A program made the translations under genes and the position numbers. Positions 32,361 through 47,546 of a stretch of DNA of 64,000 bases are shown piece after piece (within the stretch, counting starts at the first letter, position 1; each line of letters opens with the position of its first letter). A model generated the notes under the pieces. The model saw only the letters and a program-made list of their open reading frames with translations. It ran no database searches and was not told the DNA's origin. The stretch comes from Halopseudomonas nanhaiensis (lineage in GTDB: Bacteria > Pseudomonadota > Gammaproteobacteria > Pseudomonadales > Pseudomonadaceae): the NCBI RefSeq assembly GCF_020025155.1, contig NZ_CP073751.1, positions 558,001 to 622,000 on the forward strand, in the 5' to 3' direction.

Positions 32361-32436
32361 TCCGCGATAGCTCAGTCGGTAGAGCAAATGACTGTTAATC
32401 ATTGGGTCCCTGGTTCGAGTCCAGGTCGCGGAGCCA
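32361..32436 (+). tRNA. tRNA-Asn (GTT)
   Basis: 76 nt including an encoded CCA. Acceptor arms TCCGCGA / TCGCGGA pair, the T-arm has GGTTCGAGTCC, and the anticodon loop reads CTGTTAA with anticodon GTT. First of three tRNAs in one transcript. Confidence 0.97.
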
Positions 32437-32449
32437 TCTTCTACGATAT

Positions 32450-32526
32450 CGGGGTATAGCGCAGTCTGGTAGCGCGCCTGCTTTGGGAGCAGGATGTCGG
32501 GAGTTCGAATCCCCCTACCCCGACCA
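32450..32526 (+). tRNA. tRNA-Pro (TGG)
   Basis: 77 nt including encoded CCA. Acceptor CGGGGTA / TACCCCG; anticodon stem CCTGC / GCAGG around loop TTTGGGA, anticodon TGG. It lies 13 nt after tRNA-Asn. Confidence 0.97.
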
Positions 32527-32535
32527 TTTTTATAT

Positions 32536-32611
32536 GGGTCGTTAGCTCAGTTGGTAGAGCAGTTGGCTTTTAACCAATTGGTCGTAGGTTCGAATCCTAC
32601 ACGACCCACCA
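32536..32611 (+). tRNA. tRNA-Lys (TTT)
   Basis: 76 nt including encoded CCA. Acceptor GGGTCGT / ACGACCC; anticodon stem TTGG / CCAA around loop CTTTTAA, anticodon TTT. Only 9 nt from tRNA-Pro. No terminator was seen after it, so transcription may run into the DUF2891 gene. Confidence 0.97.
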
Positions 32612-42577: not shown

Positions 42578-43372
42578 TCAGGGCACCGCATCGGGCTGCC
42601 AGCCGAACAATTCACAGGTGTTATGCAAACAGGCCTCGGCCAGCTGCTCGGGACTTTCACCCCGCAACTCGGCCAGCTGGCGGCATATTTCAGGCAGATA
42701 CTCCGGGCTGTTTCGTTGATAGGCCTGAAAGCTCGGCGCCATATCGGGAGAGTCCGTTTCCAGCACCAGTGCCGAGGCCGGAAGTTCCGCAATTACCCGC
42801 CGCAGGCGGCTCGCCTGCGGCCACGTTGCCGCGCCGCCCAGCCCGAGCTTGAACCCCAGTTTGATGTATTCCCGGGCTTCCTCCCGACTGCCGGCGAAGG
42901 CATGCACGATGCCCGCCCTGGGAAGACGCCAGCGCTTGAGCGTGGCGATCATCGCTGCATGCGCCCGGCGTACGTGCAGCAGCACTGGCTTGCCGTGCTC
43001 GCGGGCGATGTCCAGCTGCGCCTCGAGCAGCTGCTGCTGCTCGTCACGGTTCAGATCCTTGAGAAAATAGTCCAGCCCGATCTCGCCTACTGCGCAGCAT
43101 TTGGGATGCCCTGCTACCCGTTCCAGCCAGGCGCGCAACTCGAGCAGGTGGCTCGGTTGATGCTCGTCCAGATAGATCGGATGCAGGCCGAACGCTGCAT
43201 AAAGACCTTCGGCGCTGGTAGCCAATTGCCATGAACGCTCCCAGTTCGCGTGCGTTACCCCCATGATCAGTACGCGATGCACCCCCAGGGAATGTGAACG
43301 AGCGAGCACTTCTCGACGATCGGCGTCAAAATCCTGATAGTCGATATGGGTGTGGGTGTCGATCAGGCGCAT
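42578..43372 (-). CDS. tatD: TatD family metal-dependent deoxyribonuclease
   Basis: 264 residues of the TatD DNase fold, a metal-dependent TIM barrel. Metal ligands are visible: HTHIDYQ at the N-terminus, CAVGEIGLDYF, LLHVRRAH, HAFAGSREEA and LVLETDSPDMAP. E. coli TatD has 3'-5' exonuclease activity and a role in DNA repair. Start MRLIDTHTH is the family N-terminus. It heads a three-gene run. A TatD-superfamily relative such as YcfH/YjjV cannot be excluded, so the symbol is at family level. Confidence 0.88.
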   Translation of the reverse strand: MRLIDTHTHIDYQDFDADRREVLARSHSLGVHRVLIMGVTHANWERSWQLATSAEGLYAAFGLHPIYLDEHQPSHLLELRAWLERVAGHPKCCAVGEIGLDYFLKDLNRDEQQQLLEAQLDIAREHGKPVLLHVRRAHAAMIATLKRWRLPRAGIVHAFAGSREEAREYIKLGFKLGLGGAATWPQASRLRRVIAELPASALVLETDSPDMAPSFQAYQRNSPEYLPEICRQLAELRGESPEQLAEACLHNTCELFGWQPDAVP

Positions 43373-43490
43373 AATTGACGCTCCGGCAGCATATACGACC
43401 TCAGGATGCCACCGCGCCCGCCGACTTGTCACATGCGTGGGCTGCACCGGCTGGCGGCACGCTAGCGGCGATGCCCCGTGTTGGCGCGAG

Positions 43491-43512
43491 GTTCCGGTGC
43501 TGCTTTCGGAAC
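43491..43512. repeat. Inverted repeat upstream of the sigma-54 promoter
   Basis: GTTCCG and CGGAAC, perfect six-base arms ten bases apart, centred about 65 bp before the predicted transcription start. Position and symmetry fit an enhancer-type activator site for a sigma-54 promoter; no activator can be named. Confidence 0.45.
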
Positions 43513-43541
43513 AATGTTGGCGGAATCAAGAGCTTATATTC

Positions 43542-43557
43542 TGGTATGCGCTTTGCT
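43542..43557 (+). promoter_or_regulatory. Putative sigma-54 (RpoN) promoter
   Basis: TGGTATGCGCTTTGCT against consensus TGGCACGNNNNTTGCT: the GG of the -24 element and the GC of the -12 element are exactly ten bases apart, with 10 of 12 specified bases matching. The predicted start is near 43567. No sigma-70 hexamers of comparable quality lie here. Confidence 0.65.
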
Positions 43558-43566
43558 TGAACCTTG

Positions 43567-43668
43567 ATTACAGACGCGCGAAGTCCAGGATGGGCGCGGC
43601 TGGTACCTTGATGTTCGGGAGAAGATGAGCTCCGGTCGGCGTTTGCCGGCCGGAGCCGTCTTTGTTTG
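43567..43668 (+). ncRNA. Candidate sigma-54-dependent small RNA or leader
   Basis: Inferred from the promoter above and the strong terminator at 43629-43668: a transcript of about 100 nt in the gap between tatD and prfC. It contains a 12-codon frame (43590-43628, MGAAGTLMFGRR) whose stop abuts the terminator stem and which has only a weak AGG ribosome site. I recognise no known RNA family. It could be a trans-acting RNA, a leader attenuating the frame at 43701, or a peptide mRNA. Confidence 0.5.
43629..43668 (+). terminator. Strong intrinsic terminator
   Basis: A 12-bp GC-rich stem (43629-43640 with 43645-43656, one G-U pair) closes a GTTT loop and is followed by the T-rich CGTCTTTGTTT. It reads best on the plus strand. 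Confidence 0.75.
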
Positions 43669-43700
43669 GCGCTCATGTCGCAAATGGAGTGTGATGAGAG

Positions 43701-44060
43701 ATGCTGATACTTACCGTATCGAAACGTCTTGGATGCTGCGCGCTGGTGATCGCCACGGTGGCGGCAATGAGCGATGCAGGAGCGCCGACGTCCGGCCTAC
43801 TGGCTTCGCTGGAACGTCTGCCCGGCACAGCGGGCCTGCGGATGGTCGCCAGTCATGCTGCAGACAAGGACCAACCCGGTTGCACGGACCCGTATCACGG
43901 ACAGGTCCGGGGTGCTGGCACTGCGCAGGTCATATCGCTGCCGTGCGAGTCAGGGAATCAGGCACGAGAGCCGCTTGAGGGGCCGGGGCTCAGTTTGCAG
44001 CCGCTAATTGAGCCCGCTCCGGCCGTCGTGGAAAAACCGAGCCAGCGGATCACCTTCTGA
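43701..44060 (+). CDS. Possible small exported protein
   Basis: 119 codons. The N-terminus looks like a signal peptide: basic SKR, then LGCCALVIATVAAMSDAGA, after which the sequence is Pro/Gly/Ser-rich without recognisable domain. GGAG lies 11 bases upstream of the ATG, a loose spacing. An overlapping frame beginning at 43695 is an alternative and is also unrecognisable. It lies just after a terminator and ends 63 bp before the convergent prfC stop. It may not be a gene. Confidence 0.35.
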   Translation: MLILTVSKRLGCCALVIATVAAMSDAGAPTSGLLASLERLPGTAGLRMVASHAADKDQPGCTDPYHGQVRGAGTAQVISLPCESGNQAREPLEGPGLSLQPLIEPAPAVVEKPSQRITF

Positions 44061-44123
44061 CAGACCGCCGGTGCCTGAGTGTGAACCGGGTGCCGTCGGC
44101 CGGCTGCGCTCGGTATCGATGCG

Positions 44124-45710
44124 TCAGTGATGCTCGCGGGTTGCACTGAAGCGGATATCGGGCCAGCGCTCTTCGGTCAGGCTCAGGTTGACCCGCGTCG
44201 GGGCGAGGTAGGTAAGATGTCCGCCGCCGTCGATGGCCAGGTTCTCCATGGCCTTTGTCTTGAATTCCTCGAGCTTCTTCCTGTCGCCTGACTCCACCCA
44301 GCGTGCCGACCAGACGTTGACCGGCTCGTACATGCACTCGACCTTGTATTCCTCCTTCAGACGGCTGGCGACCACGTCGAACTGCAGCACGCCCACGGCA
44401 CCGAGAATGATGTCGTTGCTGCGCTCAGGAAAGAACACCTGGGTCGCGCCTTCCTCCGCCAGCTCCTGCAGGCCCTGACGCAGTTGCTTGGACTTGAGCG
44501 GGTCCTTCAGACGCACCCGGCGGAACAGTTCGGGTGCAAAGTGGGGAATGCCGGTGAAACCGATGCTTTCACCCTGAGTAAAGGTGTCGCCGATCTGGAT
44601 GGTGCCATGGTTGTGCAGGCCGATGATGTCGCCCGCCCAGGCTTCCTCCAGATGCTCACGCTCCGAGGCGAAAAAGGTTAGCGCGTCGGCGATGCGCACT
44701 TCCTTTCCGGTACGGACGTGATGGAGCTTCATCCCCTTGTCGTAACGCCCCGAGCAGATGCGCATGAAGGCGATCCGGTCACGGTGCTTGGGGTCCATGT
44801 TTGCCTGAATCTTGAATACGAAGCCGGTAAAGGTTTCTTCGGTCGGCTCCACGCTGCGCTCATGCGCGGGCCGTGACAGGGGAGCGGGCGCCCAGTCGAC
44901 GATGGCGTCGAGCACCTGGTCGACGCCGAAGTTGCCCAGCGCCGTCCCGAAGAACACCGGGGTCATCTCGCCGCTGAGGAATGCGTCGCGGTCGAACTCG
45001 TGACAGGCACCCTGAACCAGTTCGAGCTCTTCGACGAAGCTGTCGTACATATCGCCCAGATGATCGCGCGCCTCGGATGAATCGAGATTGGCGATTACCC
45101 GCTGCTCGGTACGCTCGTGTCCGTGTCCCGATTCATAGACGATGATGGTGTCGTCGGCGAGGTGGTAAACACCCTTGAAATCGCGGTAGCAGCCGATCGG
45201 CCAGGTGATCGGCGCGGCCTTGATCTTGAGTACCGCCTCGATTTCATCGAGCAGCTCGATCGGGTCGCGGATATCGCGGTCGAGCTTGTTCACGAAGCTG
45301 ACGATGGGCGTGTCGCGAAGTCGGCACACTTCCATCAGCGCAATGGTTCGCGGCTCGACGCCCTTGCCGCCGTCGAGCACCATCAACGCAGAGTCCACTG
45401 CGGTCAGCGTGCGGTAGGTGTCTTCAGAGAAGTCCTCGTGACCGGGCGTATCCAGGAGGTTGATCATGCGTTCGCGATAGGGAAACTGCATGACCGACGT
45501 GGTGACCGAGATGCCGCGCTGCTTCTCCATCGCCATCCAGTCCGAGGTCGCATGCCGGTCGGATTTGCGCGCCTTGACCGTCCCGGCCACGCTGATCGCC
45601 TGGCCCATCAGCAGCAAACGCTCGGTGATGGTCGTTTTACCCGCGTCGGGGTGGGAAATGATCGCAAATGTGCGGCGCTTGGCGACTTCTTTGGCTGTGA
45701 CGTTGGACAT
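44124..45710 (-). CDS. prfC: Peptide chain release factor 3
   Basis: GTPase that removes RF1 and RF2 from the ribosome after termination. 528 residues. G1 motif [17 protein letters not shown]3 [13 protein letters not shown] and G4 NKLDRD are intact, and the RF3-specific [18 protein letters not shown] is seen. The C-terminal domains include [16 protein letters not shown], typical of RF3 rather than EF-G. Separate from the upstream GGDEF/EAL gene by 126 bp. Confidence 0.97.
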
Positions 45711-45836: not shown

Positions 45837-47546
45837 TCACGCCGGAACCTTCAGAACGGCGGCCAGTTGGTCCAGCATGACCTGCTCGCCCATGTGGAAT
45901 CCCTGGGCATAATCCACGCCGATATCGCGGATGACCTTGAGGATGTTCGCGCTGGATACATGCTCGGCGATGACCTTCTTGTTCAGGAAGTGACCCATTT
46001 CGGTGATGGATCTGACCACTGCGCGGTCGACCTCGTCGCGGGCGATATGTTCGATGAACGTGCCGTCGATCTTGATGAAGTCCACCGGCAGCCGCTTGAG
46101 ATATCCGTAGGAGAACTGGCCCACGCCGAAATCGTCGAGCGAGAAGCGGCATCCGATCCGGCGCATCTCGTTGATGAAATCGGCGGCGTCCTCCAGGTTG
46201 GCTACCGCGGTGGTCTCGGTGATCTCGAAGATCAGCCGGTCTCGCGGGACCGCATGACGAACCAGTGCCTCGAACAGGAAATCGATGAACGACTCATCAT
46301 TCAGCGAGTGGCCGGAAAGATTGATCGAGAACCCGCCGAATCGTTGCAGCTCTGCCGGATGCGCCGCCATCCATGTCAGTACGGTCTGAATGACCCAGCG
46401 GTCGACCGCTGCCATCCGGCCGTATTGCTCGGCCGCCTTGATGAAGTCGGCCGGAAGCAGGTGCTGGCCATTCCGGTCGATCACCGTCAGCAGCACCTCG
46501 TAGTGCGGAAGCACGCCCGAAGCCGGGTCGATCGGCATGATTTTCTGGCAACGAATCCGCAAGTTGTCCTCATCCATGGCCTTGTTGATCCGGGTGACCC
46601 AGGACATCAGCTGGTCGCGTCTGGCCACCGCCGGATTTCCCGGTCGGACCAGTTGAACATCGGTGCGGCCGGCCTGTTTGCACAGTTCCGCCGCAGCTTC
46701 GGCCATTCGCAGCGGCTCCAGGGCATGATCGGTATGCTGATCAATCCCGACCAGCGCCACTACCGCGCTGGTGACGAAACGCTGCCCGGCATGGTCGAAG
46801 CGGCTCGCTTCGACCATTCGCTTGAGCTCTGTGGCCAGCAGGTAGCCTGCTTTTTCCGTGGTCAACGGAGCGAGCACGGCGAACCGATCAGCGCCCAGGC
46901 GCCCGATCTCGGCCGAGTCGCCAAGGCGACCTCGCAGCTGCAGGGCCAGTTCACGGAGGAAGCGGTCACCTGCTTCGTAGCCGCAGGTATTGTTGATCAG
47001 CTTGAACTGCACGATATCCAGGAAGATCAGCACATGTCCGCTACGCTGTCGGCGTGCTTCGGCAGCGAGATGTTGCAGGCAGGAGATGAACGCCGGGCGG
47101 GTAAGCAGACCGGTCAACGGATCATGCCGGGCGTCAGAGTCCAGCTTGTCCGACAGACTCAGGAGCAGCCCGTCCAACTCCACATCGACCGACGGCAGCC
47201 CGACCACGTTGGGAGCGACGATATGCACGCCGCGCACCAGTTCGGCAATGTCGGCAAGCGTCAGATGGCCCGCAGCACGGTCCGGTGTCGCAGAGCGTTC
47301 CGGGATGGCCTGGTGCTGACCGCCTGGGAGGTTGCCGGTATCAGACGGGATCTTCTTTCGTTGAACGCGGCTCAGCGAGCGCGCTCGCTTTAGCCATCGT
47401 TGCATGATTGCATTGTTGCCAAGCCAGGCGGATTGGTGGCTCGGCTCGATGAGCGCACCGTGCCGGCTGCAGCCTGAACGACTGTCACCGACCGGCCTCT
47501 GCGTGATGGGAAGGTCCAGCTCGGAAAGCCTGAGTGCCTGGGTCAT
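45837..47546 (-). CDS. EAL phosphodiesterase with degenerate GGDEF domain
   Basis: 569 residues. The first 130 are of low similarity to anything I recognise and lack membrane helices. A GGDEF-like domain follows but its active site reads GADRF (218-222), so cyclase activity is unlikely. The EAL domain keeps the key residues: Glu350 in EVL, SINLS, FEITE, LDDFG and the Lys of FIKIDG, so cyclic-di-GMP hydrolysis is likely. An AAGGAGA ribosome site precedes ATG 47546. Divergent from a TetR gene; the shared 96-bp region holds a palindromic operator candidate. Confidence 0.88.
   Translation of the reverse strand: MTQALRLSELDLPITQRPVGDSRSGCSRHGALIEPSHQSAWLGNNAIMQRWLKRARSLSRVQRKKIPSDTGNLPGGQHQAIPERSATPDRAAGHLTLADIAELVRGVHIVAPNVVGLPSVDVELDGLLLSLSDKLDSDARHDPLTGLLTRPAFISCLQHLAAEARRQRSGHVLIFLDIVQFKLINNTCGYEAGDRFLRELALQLRGRLGDSAEIGRLGADRFAVLAPLTTEKAGYLLATELKRMVEASRFDHAGQRFVTSAVVALVGIDQHTDHALEPLRMAEAAAELCKQAGRTDVQLVRPGNPAVARRDQLMSWVTRINKAMDEDNLRIRCQKIMPIDPASGVLPHYEVLLTVIDRNGQHLLPADFIKAAEQYGRMAAVDRWVIQTVLTWMAAHPAELQRFGGFSINLSGHSLNDESFIDFLFEALVRHAVPRDRLIFEITETTAVANLEDAADFINEMRRIGCRFSLDDFGVGQFSYGYLKRLPVDFIKIDGTFIEHIARDEVDRAVVRSITEMGHFLNKKVIAEHVSSANILKVIRDIGVDYAQGFHMGEQVMLDQLAAVLKVPA

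Follow-up and report, generated by a model that had tools for sequence, protein, structure and literature searches.

A predicted sigma-54-dependent leader upstream of a small, exported-looking protein gene between tatD and prfC in Halopseudomonas

The gap between the tatD-type DNase gene and prfC of Halopseudomonas nanhaiensis raises the question of whether a sigma-54-type promoter closely followed by a terminator-like hairpin marks a free small RNA or the leader of an mRNA. The window that we analyzed is a 64-kb stretch of DNA (positions 558001-622000 of G000, C1; the genome is a single contig of 3.65 Mb), in which tatD (42578-43372, minus strand; Pfam TatD_DNase, 8e-73) and prfC (44124-45710, minus strand; Pfam RF3_C, 8.7e-46) are the divergent and convergent neighbors of the locus, respectively. 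The first-pass annotation had proposed a sigma-54-dependent small RNA or leader here; it omitted an open reading frame (ORF) at 43701-44060 on the plus strand, on which the interpretation of the locus turns.

The genus set comprised 37 Halopseudomonas genomes, assigned to the genus by record name, and TatD was found in all 37. The DNA upstream of tatD was scanned in every one of them, mostly as a fetched stretch of approximately 1.5 kb per genome, and prfC was reached only in the genomes where it fell inside that stretch. A small, exported-looking ORF was present in the tatD-prfC gap of six genomes (G000, G034, G016, G029, G020, and G035, the last being a MAG). The start of the ORF is preceded by the block CRCAARYGGAGTGTGAT, which lies 4-5 bases before the ATG. 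The search pattern CRCAARYGGAGTGTGAT-N3-8-ATG occurred in 6 of 398 sampled genomes of the family, a profile of the six proteins found the same 6 of 398, and all six matches sit beside tatD. In the TatD tree, the six small-ORF genomes and the long-branched genome G032, which carries a porin in the gap, formed one group of seven (89/89, not starred); the tree does not settle whether the porin or the small ORF arrived first.

The small proteins are 119-145 aa in length (119 aa in the window, ending in QRITF). Their N-terminus is hydrophobic by eye and the position of the ATG is kept in 6/6 genomes, while only three alignment columns are invariant: M1, one Leu, and the terminal Phe. The C-terminal tripeptides are ITF, IAF, YWF, YWF, FWF, and LTF, so that each protein ends in a hydrophobic-x-F. 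The pairwise dN/dS was 0.20 for G000 and G034 and 0.21-0.31 among G016, G029, and G020; cross-lineage values ranged from 0.28 to 0.62, from poor alignments, and the ratios are rough throughout because synonymous differences reached 0.74 per site (near saturation in some pairs). The comparison supports the prediction of a real, fast-changing coding gene that appears to be under purifying selection. Scans of the window, G016, and G035 proteins against Pfam and NCBIfam gave no match, and AlphaFold2 runs on the six small-protein sequences gave a mean pLDDT of 49.7 and a pTM of 0.11, with no usable fold. As described in a published study (PMC8545111), AlgW is activated by MucE, a small protein of the envelope, through its C-terminal WVF. 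The proteins studied here resemble MucE in being small and exported-looking and in their terminal hydrophobic-x-F (6/6); however, their length of 119-145 aa is unlike that of MucE.

The putative sigma-54 (-24/-12) promoter, TGGTATGCGCTTTGCT, is located at 43542-43557 on the plus strand, with GG at 43543-43544 and GC at 43555-43556, separated by 10 bases. Sigma-54 promoters follow a GG-N10-GC consensus of the TGGCAC-N5-TTGCW type, and the site agreed with it at 10 of 12 scored positions, which confirmed the spacing and the near-consensus -24/-12 elements reported by the first-pass annotation. Both strands of the window contained seven sites scoring at least 10, compared with a mean of 7.7 in 20 first-order Markov resamplings, so that the motif alone is at chance level; what raises the promoter above chance is its conservation among relatives. 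TGG-N8-TTGCT was found at the matching place in five of the six small-ORF genomes, within otherwise diverged DNA: G034 is identical to the window, G016 and G029 have TGGTTCGCTTTTTGCT, and G020 has TGGTTCGCTTCTTGCT. Between G000 and G034, the 19-base run TGGTATGCGCTTTGCTTGA that holds the promoter was identical, and the promoter lies 170 and 169 bases from tatD, respectively. The three 20-nt blocks preceding the block with this run were only 30-40% identical, five 20-nt blocks at gap positions 61 to 160 were 30-55% identical, and the next long identity between the two genomes, 22 bases in length, falls at the ribosome binding site and the ATG of the small ORF. As an exception, G035 has the ORF with its conserved start block, yet a GG-N10-GC promoter was not found where expected. 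A GG-N12-GC near match was seen by eye upstream of the small ORF in this genome (L010), and the missing promoter may reflect either a true loss or a MAG error. These comparisons support the prediction of a conserved sigma-54-type promoter, and a sigma-54 DNA-binding domain is encoded in G000.

Farther upstream, the palindrome GTTCCG-N10-CGGAAC that the first-pass annotation had pointed out is present at 43491-43512, but three palindromes with 6-bp arms were observed in 43373-43700 versus 1.7 in resamplings, and a search for the full palindrome in the five relatives carrying the small ORF found it in none. We judged it a chance occurrence and rejected it as an activator site. In G016, G029, and G020, a GCAC-N7-GTGC dyad (0-1 mismatch) starts 109 bases before the first base of the promoter, and a second dyad, GCAC-N6-GTGC (0-1 mismatch), was found at -79. 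These dyads, which resemble the NtrC consensus, were thus found at three of the five small-ORF loci that have the promoter. When nine porin sites were used to derive a scoring matrix, the search detected no NtrC-type dyad above chance in G000 (best p 0.32) or G034 (best p 0.56). NrsZ is an example of an NtrC/sigma-54-dependent small RNA. The locus resembles NtrC/sigma-54-dependent genes and RNAs of this kind in its sigma-54 promoter and in the dyads of the three sister species; in contrast to the NrsZ type, a conserved ORF follows, G000 and G034 have no recognizable NtrC sites, and there is no Rfam match.

The predicted 5' untranslated leader extends from 43568 to 43700 on the plus strand, its start being placed by promoter geometry, and the segment 43568-43703 folded at -61.4 kcal/mol (z = -3.46). 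Near its 5' end is a possible small hairpin, GUCCA-GGA-UGGGC (43583-43595, plus strand), with GGA in the loop and conserved pairing potential; the consensus of this upstream GGA element is GUCCA-(U)GGA(A)-UGGAC, with 93.3% of cells pairable across 6/6 genomes. When the whole leader was folded, the mean probability of its CCA/UGG pairs was 0.06 in the window, 0.00 in G034, and 0.15 in G020, compared with 0.89 in G016, 0.78 in G029, and 0.46 in G035. At the other end of the leader, the predicted Shine-Dalgarno hairpin, GUCGCA-AAUGGAG-UGUGAU (43677-43695, plus strand), places GGAG in a 7-nt loop. All six of its pairs are possible in 6/6 genomes (100%; five distinct rows counted), two of them varying on one side only, and the consensus is AUCRCA-AAYGGAG-UGUGAU, with the loop AGCGGAG in G020. 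Its mean pair probability in the whole leader was 0.79-0.96 in five genomes (0.86 in the window) and 0.10 in G020. Sliding the partners by 1-3 columns lowered the pairing to at most 43% for the upstream hairpin and at most 50% for the Shine-Dalgarno hairpin. Conservation in the leader is highest beyond the terminator, where the next gene has its ribosome binding site, and a long distance of 10-11 nt separates GGAG from the ATG. The kept pairing supports a conserved ribosome-binding-site hairpin as a prediction. Stem covariation, to which the first-pass annotation had looked for support, provided none for the GGA hairpins, since no double-sided change occurred in either of them among the six genomes and the shuffle control showed no excess for either.

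According to a review of CsrA (PMC7652899), this protein acts at glgC on a hairpin-loop site together with a Shine-Dalgarno site, CAGGAUG is the CsrB repeat motif, and the affinity of CsrA is lowered by extra loop nucleotides and by base-pairing of GGA. The window leader is similar to glgC-type CsrA/RsmA-repressed leaders in having an upstream GGA element and a GGA in the Shine-Dalgarno loop, and its first element contains CAGGAUG, as do the CsrB repeats. Unlike an ideal CsrA site, neither element presents an ANGGAN hexaloop: the upstream loops are GGA or, with one pair open, AGGAU/UGGAA-like, and the Shine-Dalgarno loops are AAYGGAG or, in G020, AGCGGAG. The leader also differs from the glgC type in that the upstream hairpin is improbable in 3/6 folded leaders, including that of the window, and in that a terminator-like hairpin lies between the two sites. 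CsrA was found in 37/37 genus genomes and is thus not discriminating. With a conserved GGA sequence and an upstream hairpin that is improbable in the window, Rsm control would be a reasonable guess from the sequence and not a structural result; it is the second step that we prefer, but by itself we consider Rsm/CsrA control of the leader doubtful.

Between the two GGA elements is a terminator-like hairpin with a U-rich tail, a candidate attenuator (43629-43668, plus strand). The hairpin itself (43629-43656) has 12 bp, 10 of them GC, and is followed by the tail CGTCTTTGTT; a terminator scan of 43000-44200 gave two sites versus 1.0 expected. A hairpin and a U-rich run occupy this position in 6/6 genomes, with diverged sequences and with strengths of -33 kcal/mol in G000, -27 kcal/mol in G034, and -12 to -15 kcal/mol in the other four, so that the strong terminator noted previously holds for the window and G034 but not for the rest. 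The 12-codon frame MGAAGTLMFGRR (43590-43628, plus strand), with the hairpin starting at 43629, had been offered as a possible peptide. A regulatory leader peptide would be in keeping with the start of the kind ATG-xxY-GCN-GCN, which recurs in 6/6 genomes with changes at third codon positions. However, the length, frame, and stop differ in the five relatives; the frame opened by that ATG extends over 74 codons in G034 and 41 in G016 and reads MDAAHV in G020 and MVAATVAR in G035. Furthermore, the ATG overlaps the conserved GGA element, and this overlap can explain its conservation. The ATGG-x-YGC-type start is thus kept without its frame or stop; we judged the frame not to be a conserved peptide and rejected a leader peptide, which is extremely unlikely. 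In G029 (L008), translation read from the ATG of the GGA element would continue in frame into the small protein, probably by chance, because the other genomes stop or change frame.

In three other species of the genus (G015, G022, and G032), a plus-strand porin occupies the space between tatD and prfC and is preceded by a sigma-54 motif (TGGCACGGGCTTTGCT in G015 and G022, TGGCACACGACTTGCC in G032); the G022 porin matches Pfam Alginate_exp. Orthologs of this porin at approximately 60% identity or more were found in 14 genomes, and all 14 have a sigma-54 motif (score 9-12) located 152-201 bases before the aligned protein start. All 14 leaders also contain CAAAGRCGTCCAC followed by at least six T within approximately 50 bases, an arrangement absent from the six further porin-like stretches that were examined. 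GCAC-N7-GTGC with at most one mismatch was found within 170 bases upstream at 10 of the 14 porin loci versus 0.8 in shuffles. Nine of the porin dyads are at -110 to -113; those of G032, at -110 and -80, are near the -109 and -79 of the G016 group, and at the same stringency no GCAC dyad was found in G015 or G022. A long ANTAR protein (defined as an open frame of at least 298 aa, with the threshold chosen after the list had been viewed) was present in 13 of the 14 porin-ortholog genomes versus 5 of the 23 others (Fisher p 3e-5, uncorrected for kinship). The porin genome without one was G024, which is 75% complete, and the one long ANTAR protein that was scanned contained a NIT nitrate-sensing domain. 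Two of the porin loci (L070 and L072) were scanned with Rfam, which gave no match at the place of the leader. The porin gene is probably of the nitrate type and controlled by an ANTAR-type attenuator, and the comparison also reveals a conserved candidate nitrate attenuator before a porin in the same genus. The small-ORF leader resembles ANTAR-responsive leaders (NasR/NasT) in its sigma-54 promoter and terminator-like hairpin and in the co-occurrence of the same-slot porin with long ANTAR proteins. ANTAR matches among the small-ORF genomes were one each in G000, G034, and G035. Since the other three (G016, G020, and G029) have the leader without an ANTAR match, ANTAR antiterminators are not general here and the small-ORF leader must differ from the porin leader; we rejected ANTAR control as the general mechanism of the small-ORF leader.

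The conservation of the promoter, the Shine-Dalgarno hairpin, and the ORF suggests that the region is best read as a sigma-54-dependent mRNA leader and not as a free small RNA, and we consider it probable that it is the leader of an mRNA for the small exported protein, with activation, Rsm/CsrA control, and partial termination as predicted steps. From the promoter at 43542-43557, the mRNA would start near 43568 and carry a leader of approximately 133 nt, with the conserved GGA element, the terminator-like hairpin, and the Shine-Dalgarno hairpin in that order before the ORF at 43701-44060. Transcription would be switched on by an enhancer-binding protein, which may be NtrC-like in the three sister species. 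Rsm/CsrA bridging both GGA sites would repress translation until titrated away, the weakest step of the proposal. The middle hairpin may terminate part of the transcripts early, in which case an RNA of approximately 100 nt may exist as a by-product; however, the strong terminator shape in the window would reduce read-through, which counts against the mRNA-leader reading. Most likely, the locus is real and probably regulated, and its general type is a familiar one. What looked like an orphan small RNA would thereby become a gene under regulation that encodes a member of a lineage-restricted, so far undescribed family of exported proteins, with the caution that a promoter and a terminator need not signify a small RNA. 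If the Rsm step is true, a sigma-54 signal (nitrogen-type in some species) and Rsm control would meet at one envelope gene.

The hairpin can also be given the main part. The leader may act chiefly as a transcription attenuator, in which the 43629-43656 hairpin stops transcription unless it is kept from doing so by a protein, a ribosome, or a base-pairing RNA, with read-through setting the expression of the ORF. The hairpin and U-rich run between the promoter region and the ribosome binding site in 6/6 genomes are consistent with this alternative, as is the clear terminator, with its long run of T, in the leader of the porin that takes this slot in three other species. However, the sequence and strength of the hairpin drift (-33 to -12 kcal/mol), the consensus fold contains no conserved alternative pairing able to undo it, and ANTAR antiterminators are not general among the small-ORF genomes; we hold this alternative possible, though only tentatively. 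That a free, trans-acting, sigma-54-dependent small RNA of approximately 100 nt, ending at the terminator, is the main function of the locus is unlikely. The promoter, length, and terminator fit such an RNA in the window and the leader fold is unusually stable, but from the promoter to the terminator tail most of the RNA differs from one lineage to another, and conservation is highest beyond the terminator, in the block at the ribosome binding site. Of the small RNA or leader suggested by the first-pass annotation, it is thus the leader that gained support, from the promoter in 5/6 genomes and the downstream ORF, and little spoke for the free small RNA. Its statement that no known RNA family was recognizable agrees with an Rfam 15 covariance search, which found no family at this place at the gathering score; the sub-threshold matches were uup, isrG, and P15 only in 43400-43800, all far below the cut-offs, and those at the loci of the five relatives were likewise far below the cut-off. 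A literature search on Halopseudomonas and small RNA returned no small RNA paper, its sole match concerning polyurethane degradation.

The shared slot suggests a further origin for the ORF, as a reduced remnant of the porin of G015, G022, and G032 that kept the signal peptide and the C-terminal hydrophobic-x-F and lost the barrel. Both leaders have a sigma-54 promoter and a terminator-like hairpin, both proteins end in F, and the six small-ORF genomes are without a close porin ortholog (G000 has only a 36% match). This origin is nevertheless quite unlikely: there was no significant similarity between the two proteins (hhalign probability 0.5%, E 0.11; hmmsearch best E 0.074), the small ORF appears to be under purifying selection, and the absence of the porin from the six genomes is not significant alone (Fisher p 0.065). 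Position and layout suggest that an inherited promoter may have had the gene behind it replaced. A fuller version of this idea is very unlikely as a whole: a nitrogen-type sigma-54 promoter slot between tatD and prfC would hold an exchanged payload, in some Halopseudomonas a nitrate-linked porin with an ANTAR-type attenuator and in others a new, lineage-restricted small exported protein with a leader rebuilt around Rsm-binding GGA sites, and this small protein would signal through its C-terminus, in the manner of MucE, to a protease of the AlgW/DegS type.

Elsewhere in the window, Rfam marked three consecutive tRNA genes at 32361-32608 on the plus strand, and the 569-aa ORF beside prfC (45837-47546, minus strand) is GGDEF-EAL-like by reading of its translation.
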